The notes under the pieces are model-generated. The model had not been told where the DNA came from, searched no databases, and worked only from the letters and a program-made list of their open reading frames with translations. The position numbers and the translations under genes are program-made. Shown here piece after piece: positions 4,550 through 63,863 of a DNA stretch of 64,000 nt. Numbering within the stretch: position 1 is the first letter of the stretch; the number at the start of each line of letters is the position of its first letter. This stretch comes from Hyperoplus lanceolatus (taxonomy: Eukaryota; Chordata; Actinopteri; Uranoscopiformes; Ammodytidae), in the NCBI GenBank assembly GCA_026929865.2, contig CM049409.1, forward strand, positions 16,556,952 through 16,620,951, written 5' to 3'.

Positions 4550-4669
4550 GTTTGCGAATGTGTGAGTGTTTAGACCATGGTGATCCAGCCGTTTGTCTGG
4601 GTGGGCTCTTTGTTTTGATTTTATTCTCTTCTTCTCTCCGTTCCAATGCTTCCCCCCTCTCCTATGCAG

Positions 4670-4687
4670 CAAGGACAAGTTTGGAAG
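4670..4687 (+). CDS. nckap1: Candidate 18-nt in-frame microexon of nckap1 (intron 1)
   Basis: Eighteen bases encoding QGQVWK lie between a strong acceptor (pyrimidine tract then ctatgcag) and a weak donor (gtttgc). Exon 1 should end and exon 2 begins in phase 0, so inclusion adds exactly six residues after the YNIKK end of exon 1. From memory, mammalian NCKAP1 has a 1,134-residue isoform six residues longer than the 1,128-residue form, inserted near this position. TGC motifs just upstream of the AG, and the weak donor, are typical of SRRM4-regulated neural microexons. Inclusion in RNA is inferred, not shown. Confidence 0.72.
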
Positions 4688-7600
4688 GTTTGCAAAGTTT
4701 ATCACCTTCCACTGATGAAACCCCACCTTCCTCCCCCTTCACCCTTCCTCAGATCCCTCCTCCTCTTCCTCCTTCCTCTTCCCACCTCCTCCTGGCTACC
4801 TGTACTGATCTGTTGGTCCTCTCCTTTGTGCCTCACTCCTCTTCCTGTTTTGAATCTGTAATGCTGAGTGTGTAAGGCTGAGCTCCCATCCACTGTGAGT
4901 TTAACCAACACACAATGGAAAACACAGCATAATGTCACACATAGTATTTGCGTGCTTTGTTTTCTCTTACTAGTCTTCAAAGCAAAAATTCAAAAGTACA
5001 TATTATCCATTTTAACAATTAACAGGTGGATAAGTCTTCACCTGATGAATAGTATTTCAATAAACCAATTGGCAGATGTAGTGATCCACAGAGTACTTGA
5101 CACAGTGAGAGTGCAGCTGCAGTGTCAATCAAAGCCAATGCTAACGTGGACACTATCCACTTTTATGTTCAGAAAATATGAAGAAACTATTTTCAAGAAC
5201 CATAGGAAATACATTACATTATGTACATTAAAGCCAACAAATGTAAAAAGGTTGAGTGAAGATTAGCAGCAGACAGTGGGCCAGCTCTTAGAAGGTTGTA
5301 GTCCTCCTCTGTTTCTCTTTTCTAACCGCATGAAACGATTCATTCTTCATAGCTCCTATTTTTTCTGTCTGTAGTAGTTAATCCCTTTCTTGTGTAAAAA
5401 AAAAAAGAAGAAATGAGAGGGCTCACACACTTTGATGAATGATGGACAAACACTTATTCGTCTCAGCCATGATGACAAGTATGTATTTTGCGGTGGTTTA
5501 CAGGGACTCACTTAAATGGTGCCATGGGGTGTTGGAATATTTCATTCAGCAATTAGCAGCTGTAATTAGTTTCCAGATGTAGCTTTTACCCTGGCCCCGG
5601 GCAATCTATTACATGCTCCCATGCAGTATGTTGTAGGAGCTCAGCTGTTCATTTCTAACTGGGAGTAGAGGAATGATGGTGGAGGAGAGACTAAGGTCTA
5701 TGCTGGTATCCAGGCAACAGCTCCCTTTACGTGTCCCCTGACCACGACTGATTTCTCAGCTTCTGCCCATGCCCGGTCCCTTCATTCACCACATCCATCC
5801 GTCCATCCATTTTACCATCAACCAACCCCCACCCAAACCCAGCCAGCCAGCTTATTTCACTAGCCACCACAATGGGCAATATCACGCCATGTAAATGACA
5901 AGAAATTATTAATGAATATGGAAGATTTTGTTCTGTGATGCTAATAAAACACAGTAGCCATTTATGTGCCTTACCTCTAAATGTAAAGCAGTGAATAATA
6001 GCTTAGGAAGTCATTTGAGCTAAATCAATTGTTGAGACGCTGCAATGGTGTGGCTTTATCTGCACATATTAAACTTGGTCTCTAGCATATACTATAATAG
6101 ATTTTTAAGGAGATTTTTTGAGGTTTTGCATGTTTTAGCCCAGCAACTAATGTCTCACTTACTGAACACTACTGCCAACCATTATCCAAAGTATAGGTGT
6201 TTTACATTGGATTTTAATCAATGTGTTGGTAACTGCTTTCATTTCTAAATCAAATTCATAAAACCGATGATGATGCAACGATAGCTTTTTGTTGCTTTCA
6301 AGTGCTTGTGGGAATTTCTGATATGTAAGAGCCACATCCACAAACTATATTTTCAGAAAATTGAAAGCAGAAAGAAATTTAGAATAAAGTAGTTTGTTAG
6401 TTTCTTTATTATATTATAAAAGGTTGCTGAATGGTGTTGTGACCCACAAAGTCTTGGATGTTGACACTTACAATCATTTGAATGCACCAACAAGTAAGTC
6501 AATAAACCAGTCAAGTTTAATTAAAGAGTATTTTTTTGAGCAAGCATTGCAAAACACTTCCTAAAATAATAAAGAATAGTTTACACATTCCAATTTAAAA
6601 GCTTCACGTTGTTTACCAGCGAGAGCTGTTGCAGACACACAGCAGCAAAACAAAAAAAAAACCTTTTAGTTTGGAGTTTGGGCTAAAACATGAAAACCAC
6701 CTGTTCAGCCTTTCAGTCAGCATACCAATGTTATGGAGTAACCTGACAGTGTTTTTCACTCTGCAGTTGCCGGGCGTGAGTCAAAGGGTAAATACCTTGT
6801 AGTGGCCAATGTAGAGACTAGTCTGCTGTGTAGAGTGAGGCCAGTGGTGTGTTGTCTTTCAGAAGAGCACTGTGGTAGCAAAACAACAAGGCTAGTGCTT
6901 TTGCAATGGCATGGATTTCACAGTCACGTCTTGATTCCTTGTTTCTCATTTAAAAATGTTCAAGTTTTAAACTCAGTCTGCTTCTCACACACCTACACAG
7001 ATTTTATATTGGCCATTACCTGTTTAGCAAACTTACAATGAGCATTGATGTCGGTTGGAAGTTGTTAATCTGGTAAGGTGTGAGAGAAGTGGACGCAAGG
7101 AAACAAGCTGAGACTCAAGGTCCAGTCAGTGTCTTTCATGGGAAATGAAATCATGTTGGTGTTGTGTGTATTTTCTATGTTGAATCCCCTCCCCAAGTGT
7201 CCTAGTATCTTGTGTTCAAGACCCTGCAGTAGGTGTGCTTCAGACCCGGCTCTAAAAGAGCTCAGTATGCCTGTTTCTGCTGTTTTTATTGAGTGAACTA
7301 GCTTCAGCTAACAGATTAAACAGACAAACTGAACTGGGTTTTGACTAGGTAGCTAGCATGATACATATTGCTGAGGCTTGCGGGATGGAATATACTTTCT
7401 TTATTCCTGTCACTTGCACCAGTTTGCATCCCATGTTTACTGGGACCACACCAACGTGTGACAACTCTGCAATTTTTGGTTAGTTTATGAAAGTGTTAAA
7501 GCAAATTAAAGGGCAGCAAAAGCAGAACCTCCACTTTTTAATACTCAGGTTGTCAGTTCCCTGCTGTGCCTATGTGAACTAGCATGTTTTGCTGTTTTTC

Positions 7601-9032: not shown

Positions 9033-31407
<22,375 letters not shown>

Positions 31408-38415: not shown

Positions 38416-53416
<15,001 letters not shown>

Positions 53417-56740: not shown

Positions 56741-56936
56741 TTTTAATAGTCCTCCTGTCAAAATGTAAAACTTATAAAACAATAGCTGCAGTGTCAGTTT
56801 TCACTTAGCATCTGTTAGTAGTACATCCAGGCTTCAGGGTCTTACATGGTTCTCAGTGGTGAAGTGAATGCTAACCCCCTGTTTCTGGTAAACACTGAAA
56901 CACTGCAGGGCTGTTTACTCATCTGGGAAACTGTCC

Positions 56937-57710
56937 TCAATTGTAATGATGACTCTGGTAGGCCTGAGGAAAGGGCGCTTGGTAACAGCACCAGCACGTC
57001 TGTGGAGTGAGTGCATGCAGATGGGTCTGAGGTGTGTGTGGGAGCCTCCGGGACTGTAGGTCTATCACAGGAAGTGTGTGCAGCGCTGGCAGTAACCTTT
57101 GACCTTGAGTGAACGGAGGAGCAAAGAGTTGAGACTGCTGCTGTTGCTGGTGTTGATGCGACCGCTGATGTGGCTGGTGTTGTTGCCGTCGGTACTTGTG
57201 TGACAGCTGGTGACGTTGCAGTAATGTGGTTGGAGTTTTGGTTGACCGCTGTTGCCACGTTACTGCTGTCTCCTGCCATGGAAATGGTTGCAGAGGTGAC
57301 GCGTTGTGGATTCCTCCAGCAGTTTTCTCCTGGTCCCTCTCAGTGTGCTGCTGTTTGACGATGCAGAAAGCTTGGGCGCAGTCATCGTTGATTTGGGTTA
57401 ACACCTGCAGGTTGAGGGTGGAGACGACTTTATGAGGGGTGAGAGAGGTCTCCGACGTCTCCTCTAGTCCGTTGCCATCTTTTCCTTCTGTTTCATGGAT
57501 CTCCGAATAAGCCTTACCAACGCTGCTTGAGCTGCTGCTGCTGCTGCTGCTGCTGGATTCTACTTCTTCAGAGCCCCAGTCTTCCTCCTTTTCAGAGTTG
57601 CCTTCTTCTGAAGAACTGGACTCTCGGCCGTCCCCTCGCTTAGAGCACCTCTTCTGGCTGTAGCAGGCGGCACAGCGAGACAGACCCAGATACTCAGAGC
57701 CCGATCTGGA
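56937..57710 (-). CDS. Ser-rich gene, last coding exon
   Basis: Follows acceptor gtctgtccag; starts SRSGSEYLGLSRCAACYSQK. Stop at 56937-56939 in this frame. ATTAAA at 56742-56747 on the same strand could be the polyadenylation signal. Confidence 0.65.
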   Translation of the reverse strand, partial: SRSGSEYLGLSRCAACYSQKRCSKRGDGRESSSSEEGNSEKEEDWGSEEVESSSSSSSSSSSSVGKAYSEIHETEGKDGNGLEETSETSLTPHKVVSTLNLQVLTQINDDCAQAFCIVKQQHTERDQEKTAGGIHNASPLQPFPWQETAVTWQQRSTKTPTTLLQRHQLSHKYRRQQHQPHQRSHQHQQQQQSQLFAPPFTQGQRLLPALHTLPVIDLQSRRLPHTPQTHLHALTPQTCWCCYQAPFPQAYQSHHYN

Positions 57711-59557
57711 CTGGACAGACATGGAGATGAAGACAGTTAGGCAGAGAGTTGATGCGTTTTCTTTCTACCGATTTGTAGTACCACCCGCATATTGCATATT
57801 GACACGCTGAATGAAACTGGGATCCATGTGATTTCCATCCATCACCTTCTTAACATAGCACCATTCTTTTTCTTGCAAATGTGTTAACACGGTTTCATTG
57901 ATTTCGTTCATTTTCCAGACTCTTTTTTAACAACAGTTAACACAGATCCCATTGACTGGGTTGGATGAACTGTGTTCAACAAAAGGAAAAGGTATACTTT
58001 ACAATAATGTGGCATTCATTTACTGTTAGTAAATGCTTAGTTAATGATGAATAAGCATCAGCAAAGCATTTATTACTGCTTAGTTAATGCTTAATAAGCC
58101 TTTACTAACCATTATGCTTATTTAATAACTATGCATTAACTAATTATAAATAGCATTAACTAACAGTTAATTAATGTACCCTTATTGTGTTACATATTGT
58201 TGTGAGTGTTACCAAGGAGAACAGGTTGCATGCTCAATGTGTGTATGATTAAGACAAAGTCTGTTTCTATTCGACTTTGTCGCATTTTGCGCTTATCCAT
58301 GCACCAACTTCTCCAACTCAGTTGTGTCGAGGCAATTGTAATTCCCTTGAGAGATGAACGAACACAACTTTTATTTATATACTGTATACTACACAGATGG
58401 CTGAGGAGTCTGACCAAGAAAATCTCTCCAGTCACAATCTGTCAGTTTACAGGAAGTTTTGACCAGCACGAGGGCTCTTGGTTTTGTCGTTACCCCATAC
58501 AAAGTTCATCCTTAATCAATTACAACAAGCAACTGTCCTATTACCGCAATAAACAGTTCCTTATTACTCCTCTTAAACCACACCTAACAAACAGCTATTT
58601 ATTGCTCCTGCTAACAACACCTCCAGTTACGGATACATTTAGAACTGAATATTTGATGAATATCTGCATGCAAATAGTTTCATAATAAATTACCATCACA
58701 AGTGGATCATAAAAACCTTTATTAAAGGGTATTTTTTGAATTCTCTGCATTTTTTAATGCGCAAATTAGATATGCACGAACAATGCACCTTTCTGAGCTG
58801 CTTTGAAGCAATATTGTTGCAGAATGTATTTTTCTTTACTAAAACAGACAAGCTTTGAGAAAAATACCTTTAGTTTGTGATGTTCACTGTGTGTAAACAG
58901 GTTTTCAGTGGAGCCTCCAGAGTGTGACTGAAGTCCTCTAGACTGGACACCTCCTTCTCTCATTGTTTCCAATTCTTCACTGCATTCGGTCCCTTCCACT
59001 GCAAAAACCATATCAGCAAGAACAAGTTAAACAGTCTTTTGAAGAAACTCATAAAAAGAAAAAAAGAGAGACTGCAATTATTGATTCTTTCCATTCTGGA
59101 TTCATTTGCGGATTCTTTTCTCCATCAATCGGTCGATTCATTGCTTTGAGCCCAAAGTGACACCTTCACAATGCTTGTTGTGTCCAAAGCTTAATATTGT
59201 TACAAACATATTCAACTTCTTCATATCAATTAAGGGAAAAGTTGCAAATATTCACATTGAAAGCCGCAACCAGGATAGGCTTTCACAGGTAAAACGACAA
59301 AATCAAACAGTTGCCAGCAAATGTTCTATCAGTTACCTAAATGAGTTAACTCATTGTTTCCGAAGTATAGTCTGTACTGTTGGTTAGTTTGATTAATGAA
59401 AAATCATTGTTTGTCATGGTTTGTGTGTAAACAATCATATTTGTAACATAACTAAAGCTGTCAGTTTATTGTAATAGAGTTCAAATGAAAAGTAAAAGTT
59501 TTCAGTAGAAAACAAGTACTTACTCATTCTTCCACTTTCTCCTCCAGGATGCAGCAT
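56937..59557 (-). CDS. Unrecognised Ser-rich acidic protein, three coding exons
   Basis: I do not recognise this protein. Exons 59524-59557, 58868-58998 and 56937-57710 join in phase into 312 residues, starting MLHPGGESGRMMEGTECSEE. An in-frame TAA precedes the ATG in the same exon, supporting this start. Residues 62-77 (YLGLSRCAACYSQKRC) contain a CxxC and a third Cys. Then come an acidic Ser/Glu-rich stretch, a 12-Ser run (about residues 107-118) written mostly as an AGC repeat, and a more ordinary segment VSTLNLQVLTQINDDCAQAF. The last 100 residues are low-complexity (His/Gln-rich). A second frame is also open there and ends at 56842, so the true C-terminus is uncertain. No signal peptide or membrane segment. 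It lies upstream of the ppp1r1c-like gene on the same strand. Confidence 0.6.
57991..58213. mobile_element. TTAATG-rich MITE in the Ser-rich gene's intron
   Basis: Ends GGTATACTTTACAATAA and, inverted, a looser GGTAACACT...ACAATAAGGGTAC. The interior is a series of TTAGTTAATG-like units. Fish-type MITE by appearance. Confidence 0.55.
58868..58998 (-). CDS. Ser-rich gene, middle exon
   Basis: Encodes MEGTECSEELETMREGGVQS through FTHSEHHKLK between ttttgcag and gtattt. The first two bases complete the Met split from the previous exon; it ends in phase 0. Confidence 0.7.
59524..59557 (-). CDS. Ser-rich gene, start-codon exon (coding part)
   Basis: Encodes MLHPGGESGRM plus one base, donor gtaagt. 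The exon itself probably starts at 59701 after tttgcacag, leaving 144 bases of 5' UTR and implying an upstream non-coding exon. Confidence 0.6.
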
Positions 59558-61321: not shown

Positions 61322-63051
61322 ACTACAAAACCGCGCCTGCATTTGGATGAAAGTTCACATCCAGATTATTGACTATGTGTTTAGATGACATCTTTTTGCT
61401 CGTGTTCAAACAGCAAGCGCGTCACAAGACAAATCATTTGTAAACTAGGGGAATTAGATTCACAAATTTCAGTTTAGTTTGCTGACAATTGCTTATATAT
61501 TTACCTTAAGATTGATTTCTCTTTTGGCAGGAGATTTTCCTAAAGGACTAATATATTATATATTCCGAGCTGCCATGAGTGCAACTGTAGAGGCCATTTG
61601 AGAAACATCAAGCTGTTTACTTTGGCAGCTTGTCGGACAGCATTTAACACAGACCAAAAACTTCCATCCTCATCCAAGTTCATTCATTGAAGCACTTACT
61701 GACGGTGGCCCTGAGGGCTCAACACATACTGCAACAGAGAGCAAATGCAACGGCCGGAACAACATCAAATAAAAGGAAAAACATGCTCGACAGGTTGACA
61801 ACACAACTATGTTTTACAAGACAAGAACAATTAATGAATGTGTTTCTTCATTTTTGTTTGGCTTTCCCAGTGCTTTTGAGCATTCAGGGCCACCGTACTT
61901 CTTTCTTCTCTGGGTCAAGTTTGGCTTGAATTCATCACTCAAGAAAAAGGAAACATTTAAAAGGCAGTACCTTGCACACATTCACACCTATCTGTAATTT
62001 ATAGACTCCATTCACCTGATCTGACAGCAACAAGAAGCAGGTGCAAACTCCTCAAGCAAAGAGCTGCAGATCAGAGTGGAGAATCTTTCCGTCTTTGTCA
62101 TCCAGTTTAAAACACCAACGGCGCTGTTTAGACTAAGAACAGGTGGGGAAGAAGAATGATAATGGCACATTTAATGTAGATCATTACAGTGGTGCACACT
62201 TTGGCATCTGAAGCTCCTTCGGCTTATACTGTCAACCGAGGGAAGTGGCTTCAGGAAACTGCACAGACGCCTTTCATCAGTCTGGTTTCATCCTAGAACA
62301 CAATAAGCCAACAGGAAGAGGGACGGAGATGCCTTCATGATTTCAGCAAAAAGGTTCTTGGCTACTGTGAAGAACTGAAAATACTATACGATAGGATACT
62401 TTTCTTTTTCACAGTTGCAAGACTTCAACGTCTCTTCCAAACTCCATGTCCAGGTCAATATACAGCAGAGAACAATCGACGCCGGCGTCCAAACTGCTCA
62501 TAAAAAGGAGACTTCACTGTTTATCCATATTGAAACTGGTCCAGGGAGCTGCCTGCAACAATCGCAGTTTAACTTTTCACTTACTTTGTTCACAGCTTCG
62601 GGTCACAAACCTCTTGAGCTCCAAGGCTACACATCATCACCAAAAGTGTGTGTTAATGTGGTGACCTACTGAAATATAGAAGGAAGAGACACAGCAGCAT
62701 CCTCTCATGTCAGTGGGTTTAACATGTCCTATTCATCATGCTCACAATGTCTCAACTCTCGCAGTCCAGCTGTAAGACCTCCCTCATCATGCTGTGTTTT
62801 TTCCATCCCTCCAGTCCGTATGTACTGTGTGACTGAAACACTTATAAAGGGGACAATGAAGCAAGTCTCCAAAGTGCATGTGTTTGGCAATCAGTTCACG
62901 CTCCCAGTAGAGGTCAAACAATGGTCCACTCGTCCTCAGTTTAACTGAAACGTCAACGTCAATAATCCTGACCGGATGTAGTCCCTGTCACTGGTATGGG
63001 TCCTGTCTGGTTCTGGAGCTCTCCTAGAGTTTAAGGAAGATTTTTGGACAG

Positions 63052-63179
<128 letters not shown>

Positions 63180-63182
63180 TCT

Positions 63183-63295
63183 TCAGATGGACAGGTCAGT
63201 GTCTGTGTCAGTGGGCGTGGTCTTTGGGCTAGGACCTTGGCCTCCTCTCTCCTCAGGGATGGAGCACGAGTCCCCGTTGAGACCGGGTAGCGTGC
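63183..63295 (-). CDS. Right-edge gene, last coding exon
   Basis: Completes Arg and encodes TLPGLNGDSCSIPEERGGQG through DTDTDLSI and TGA. The acceptor ttcag follows a (GT)n run. A (CA)n tract begins five bases after the stop. Confidence 0.68.
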
Positions 63296-63863
63296 CTGAA
63301 ACACACACACACACCAGACAGGGAGGAAATACACATATTAAAGCTGGAGTCAAAGATTCTGGGGAACGTTTGTTGTCAAAATTACTGTTTGTCAAAATCA
63401 GTAAATATATCCTCACCATCCATTACCTGTCCGTACTGTGTGCGCACTGAAAAGAAACCTGGTGTTAATACGCATCCTAGGCTCTGTAAACTGGTATGTA
63501 AACAAAAGCTAGTAACACGCTAGTAACAGAGCCTAGGCTGTGTATTAACACTGAGGTTTTTTCAGAGCAGAGCACACACAGTACGGACAGGACTCCTTTA
63601 AGCTTACCAGGTGGTTTGTTTTTTGCAAAGATGCATCACACAGACAGGAGAGGAAGTCAAGGTTTGATATGCCTATCGAAAGAGCTCTAAGTTAACCTAA
63701 TAAAGGAATATTTTAAAACTTTTCATTTAAGTTAAGCTTCTATGGACTGTTGTATGTGTCTTTCTTACGCTCAGTGTCATACACGGAGCTGTCGGAGCAC
63801 GTCCGGTTTCTACGCTGATTTGACCTCTGACCTCCACTCAGGTACTCCTTGAGCACACCTGAC
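63183..63863 (-). CDS. 3' end of an unrecognised gene running off the right edge
   Basis: Two exons (63769-63863 and 63183-63295) join in phase into the last 68 residues: SGVLKEYLSGGQRSNQRRNR, TCSDSSVYDTER, then TLPGLNGDSCSIPEE and a Thr/Asp-rich end DTDTDLSI with TGA. The Ser/Asp-rich SDSSVYDTE looks like a phosphorylation-rich cytoplasmic tail. I do not recognise the family. The other exons lie beyond 64000. If mammalian gene order held, ITPRID2 would be expected near here, but this tail does not resemble what I recall of it. Confidence 0.65.
63338..63602. mobile_element. Hairpin MITE in the right-edge gene's last intron
   Basis: Ends TTAAAGCTGGAGTC and GGACTCCTTTAA. The core 63428-63591 is a long inverted repeat (CCTGTCCGTACTGTGTG with its complement; CCTAGGCTCTG with CAGAGCCTAGG). 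Would fold into a stem of about 70 bp in the pre-mRNA. Confidence 0.75.
63769..63863 (-). CDS. Right-edge gene, penultimate coding exon
   Basis: 95 bp between ttcctcag and gtaaga. Encodes SGVLKEYLSGGQRSNQRRNR TCSDSSVYDTE plus one base of Arg; its first base completes a codon from an exon outside the window. Confidence 0.7.

Follow-up and report, generated by a model that had tools for sequence, protein, structure and literature searches.

Does intron 1 of nckap1 in the fish Hyperoplus lanceolatus hold a neural microexon, and which factors might control it? The question concerns 18 nucleotides at positions 4670 to 4687 of the window, that is, the whole 64-kb stretch of DNA analyzed here, which belongs to the plus strand of contig C15 in an 807-Mb genome. 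NCKAP1, also called Nap1, is an actin-regulating subunit of the WAVE regulatory complex. Exons 2 to 4 of the host gene lie at 9033 to 9143, 11648 to 11740, and 11853 to 11909, and their translation differs at 2 of 87 residues from Nck-associated protein 1 in the Protein Data Bank (3p8c_B). Exon 1 lies on C15 upstream of the window, where a Pfam Nckap1 match covers profile positions 1 to 38. It has 36 codons, ends with NIKK in phase 0 (AAA AAG, with K36 last), and is followed by the donor GTTCGA; the exon ends at window position -1560. The next constitutive exon, which is exon 2 if the microexon is skipped, is the plus-strand exon at 9033 to 9143. It opens with GCA TGT GGC in phase 0, encodes ACGDPK, and matches 3p8c_B from residue 37. 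Intron 1 is 10,592 nt long.

Besides the locus in the window, Pfam Nckap1 matches were found in the genome on contig C2 and, once, on contig C17. The C2 matches form a second multi-exon Nckap1 locus, which we take to be nckap1l (HEM1). Its exon 1 ends with YIKK and its exon 2 starts with TCADPK, and the junction between them falls at the same place and in the same phase as in nckap1. From the protein matches, we assign the host gene in the window to NCKAP1 rather than to its paralogue NCKAP1L. The lone C17 match (17677968 to 17678147) is weak (E = 3.1e-9) and has two TGA codons inside. Its translation, with two stops in 60 codons, bore no likeness to nckap1 by eye.

The 18 nucleotides, read directly from the bases of the plus strand, are CAAGGACAAGTTTGGAAG and encode QGQVWK. 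They are preceded by AG and followed by GT; in context, CCTATGCAG runs into CAAGGACAAGTTTGGAAG and then into GTTTGC. Within the 64-kb window, the 18-mer is found a single time, on the plus strand. The piece is an in-frame cassette of phase 0-0 in nckap1 intron 1, within the 3- to 27-nt microexon range, and both of its splice dinucleotides are intact. Because exon 2 starts in phase 0, inclusion would insert six residues after K36 and before A37 and keep the frame. The preliminary description had placed an 18-nt candidate coding QGQVWK here, and its coordinates, length, and peptide are all exact. It had also held that the piece is a multiple of three in the right phase with exon 2 and would insert near the N terminus before ACGDPK. 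The phase-0 end of exon 1 and the start of exon 2 at 9033 bear this out, and the protein junction reads K36, QGQVWK, ACGDPK.

The human gene provides the key comparison (here and below, statements on cited papers refer to the available portions of their text). In human NCKAP1, the sole difference of isoform 2 from isoform 1 is that K36 becomes the loop 36-KQGQVWK-42 (PMC11632847). The fish peptide is identical to this insert at 6 of 6 residues and at the same position. The six-residue-longer mammalian isoform invoked in the preliminary description is therefore real, with the same hexapeptide in the same place. An 18-bp microexon of human NCKAP1, numbered exon 2, is included in neurons and skipped in progenitors, and it is lower in autism cortex as cited in the same paper (PMC10842930). 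From its length and position, we infer that this 18-bp exon is the one that codes for the six residues of PMC11632847. The human exon and the fish piece share length, peptide, place after K36, and the flanking ACGDPK. However, neuronal inclusion is in print for the human exon, whereas the fish likeness rests on peptide, length, and position. The Protein Data Bank chains of NCKAP1, namely 3p8c_B and four further entries of identical sequence, have the short form, IKK-ACGDPK.

Because the printed human insert agrees with the fish piece in all six residues and in position, the window almost certainly holds, on this sequence evidence, the fish orthologue of the known neuronal NCKAP1 microexon of 18 nt. 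As the fish copy of an exon described in human, it is an already described exon and no new kind of element. It is a neuron-linked six-residue insert of a WAVE-complex subunit, tied in print to autism cortex, and its peptide is the same in this fish and in human. Therefore, fish are a reasonable system for asking what the loop does.

The splice sites of the microexon are of unequal strength. The 3' splice site (4622 to 4669, plus strand) is pyrimidine rich, with a UC tract, a C run, and TATGCAG. The 5' splice site, GTTTGC (4688 to 4693, plus strand), is weak, with a score of -0.8. Scores are from a rough position-weight scheme, not from MaxEnt. The microexon acceptor outscored every one of the 26 acceptors that were automatically assigned in the gene. 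Of the 26 assigned donors, 3, exon 1's own among them, scored as low as or lower than the microexon donor. These ranks are approximate, because the automatic assignment of junctions contains errors: the true exon at 11853 to 11909 was missed, and several rows lie far from the profile. Within that approximation, the strong acceptor and the weak donor of the preliminary description both hold. It had also pointed to TGC motifs at the acceptor. Two are present on the plus strand: a candidate SRRM3/4 site at -23 (4647 to 4649), with the role of the motif taken from PMC5247714, and one at -5 (4665 to 4667), which by sequence reading adjoins the AG. However, they are not distinctive, since 3 of 21 other acceptors likewise have two UGCs within their final 35 nt (21 of the 26 assigned acceptors were counted, five poorly fitting rows being dropped).

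These features bear on control by Srrm3 and Srrm4. SRRM4 targets are described as having a UC-rich tract with UGC (PMC12626420, PMC5247714), and this layout was taken as a sign of likely Srrm4 control in 42 of 95 zebrafish-conserved microexons (PMC12626420). The fish piece shares with SRRM3/SRRM4-dependent neuronal microexons, such as protrudin exon L and the zebrafish conserved set, a UC-rich tract and UGC just upstream. It is likewise a very short in-frame cassette, in a genome with SRRM_C loci. It differs from them in that some other acceptors of the gene reach the same UGC count. Because those acceptors also carry two UGCs, the layout supports Srrm4 control weakly. The SRRM_C domain (PF15230), which we take to be the eMIC domain of Srrm3/4, the kind of domain that drives such exons, has two loci above the Pfam cut-off in the genome, as domain matches on contigs C13 and C3. 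In zebrafish, loss of srrm3/4 affects 191 of the 243 neural microexons that had coverage (PMC12626424). The available text of the two zebrafish microexon deletion studies does not name nckap1. Given the UC tract, the UGC layout, and the SRRM_C loci, control of the fish nckap1 microexon by SRRM4 or Srrm3 is plausible, and by its class it is likely. By analogy with this class, the exon would be spliced in H. lanceolatus, with inclusion in neurons and dependence on Srrm3/4.

We propose the following mechanism. In most cells, exon 1 would be joined straight to exon 2, giving NIKK-ACGDPK. In neurons, an Srrm3/Srrm4-type factor with its microexon-enhancing domain may act on the UC/UGC-rich 3' splice site and rescue an exon that would be too short, with a donor too weak, to be defined alone. 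The neuronal product would then read NIKK-QGQVWK-ACGDPK. The six residues would form a loop near the Nap1 N terminus, and we infer an effect on the WAVE complex in which the loop probably tunes assembly or interactions in neurites.

It is also conceivable, although unlikely, that in this fish the exon, while real and orthologous, is broadly included, or is mainly under Qki, relief from PTBP1, RBFOX, or muscle or endocrine programs. The acceptor that tops all 26 assigned ones while its UGC content is ordinary would fit this, as would the fact that srrm3/4 loss leaves some of the zebrafish neural microexons unaffected. Downstream of the exon, 132 of 170 nt (4688 to 4857, plus strand) are C or T by base count. 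This part of the intron is a candidate PTB-type repressor platform and fits PTB repression. However, about 500 nt to each side of the microexon contain no ACTAA, the Qki core; over the same distance, the only CTAAY matches are at -216 and +471, and the only GCATG, the RBFOX motif, is at -257. Mouse Nckap1 does appear in a table of Qki-regulated splicing targets, where the exon is unnamed (PMC6429586), and so other regulators may act on nckap1. Qki is a possible further regulator of the microexon. In zebrafish, inclusion of some neural microexons extends to endocrine pancreas, muscle, or immune tissue (PMC12626424). Against this reading, the human exon is skipped in progenitors and included in neurons (PMC10842930).

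The neuronal, Srrm-dependent reading could be extended to the whole intron. The exon 1 donor, GTTCGA (at about -1559), scores -0.9 and is as weak as the microexon donor at -0.8. The C2 paralogue, which is without the microexon, has a consensus-like exon 1 donor, GTGAGG. In its intron 1 (1,686 nt), no QGQVWK-like piece was found in six frames; a loose GQSW match in a 4-kb stretch on C2 lies beyond exon 2. The weak exon 1 donor might delay excision of the 10.6-kb intron 1, leaving an Srrm-type factor time to include the microexon, which would make the whole intron a neural switch. We regard this extension as speculative and rather improbable.

The weakness of the donor might instead mark a decayed relic, an ancestral microexon kept in the sequence and no longer used in this lineage. 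However, all six residues of the peptide are preserved, as are the frame and both splice dinucleotides, and we consider a relic very improbable.

We also scanned intron 1 for open, phase-compatible candidates of 3 to 27 nt. At an acceptor score of at least 6 and a donor score of at least -3, thresholds that were chosen after the candidate was seen, the microexon is the only sense candidate in the 10,592 nt, and the antisense strand of the intron gave no candidates. In 100 first-order Markov introns, the mean was 0.3 candidates at these thresholds and 0.01 at the microexon's own scores. At an acceptor score of at least 2 and a donor score of at least 0, the microexon falls out because of its weak donor, and two other sense and two antisense candidates are found in the intron. 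Open pieces of 18 nt between AG and GT might be expected to arise by chance and never be spliced, and AG-N18-GT windows are indeed common (42 in intron 1), but the peptide is identical to the insert of the human isoform and sits at the same residue, and exact QGQVWK between AG and GT is expected only 2.7e-8 times in the intron, which leaves chance with a negligible probability. In a separate pattern scan, the coding 18-mer with its AG and GT flanks matched four times in the genome contig collection. All four matches are bacterial (Verrucomicrobiota, Saprospiraceae, and two in Pseudomonas) and, from the record titles, were taken as chance. The same pattern had no matches among viral contigs.

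Several other features of the window were observed. Rfam gave no matches at gathering scores over the whole window. Intron 1 carries a near-perfect inverted repeat at 1021 to 1179. Its 74-nt arms (1021 to 1094 and 1106 to 1179) are 97% complementary and 11 nt apart, and the repeat resembles a foldback or MITE-type element. Long CA/GT dinucleotide repeats at 40932 to 41201 and 62936 to 63450 give rise to spurious open reading frames on both strands. On the minus strand, overlapping open reading frames of 261 and 145 aa at 56842 to 57722 are rich in Ser, Gln, and Thr and are possibly an exon of a neighboring gene or low-complexity sequence.
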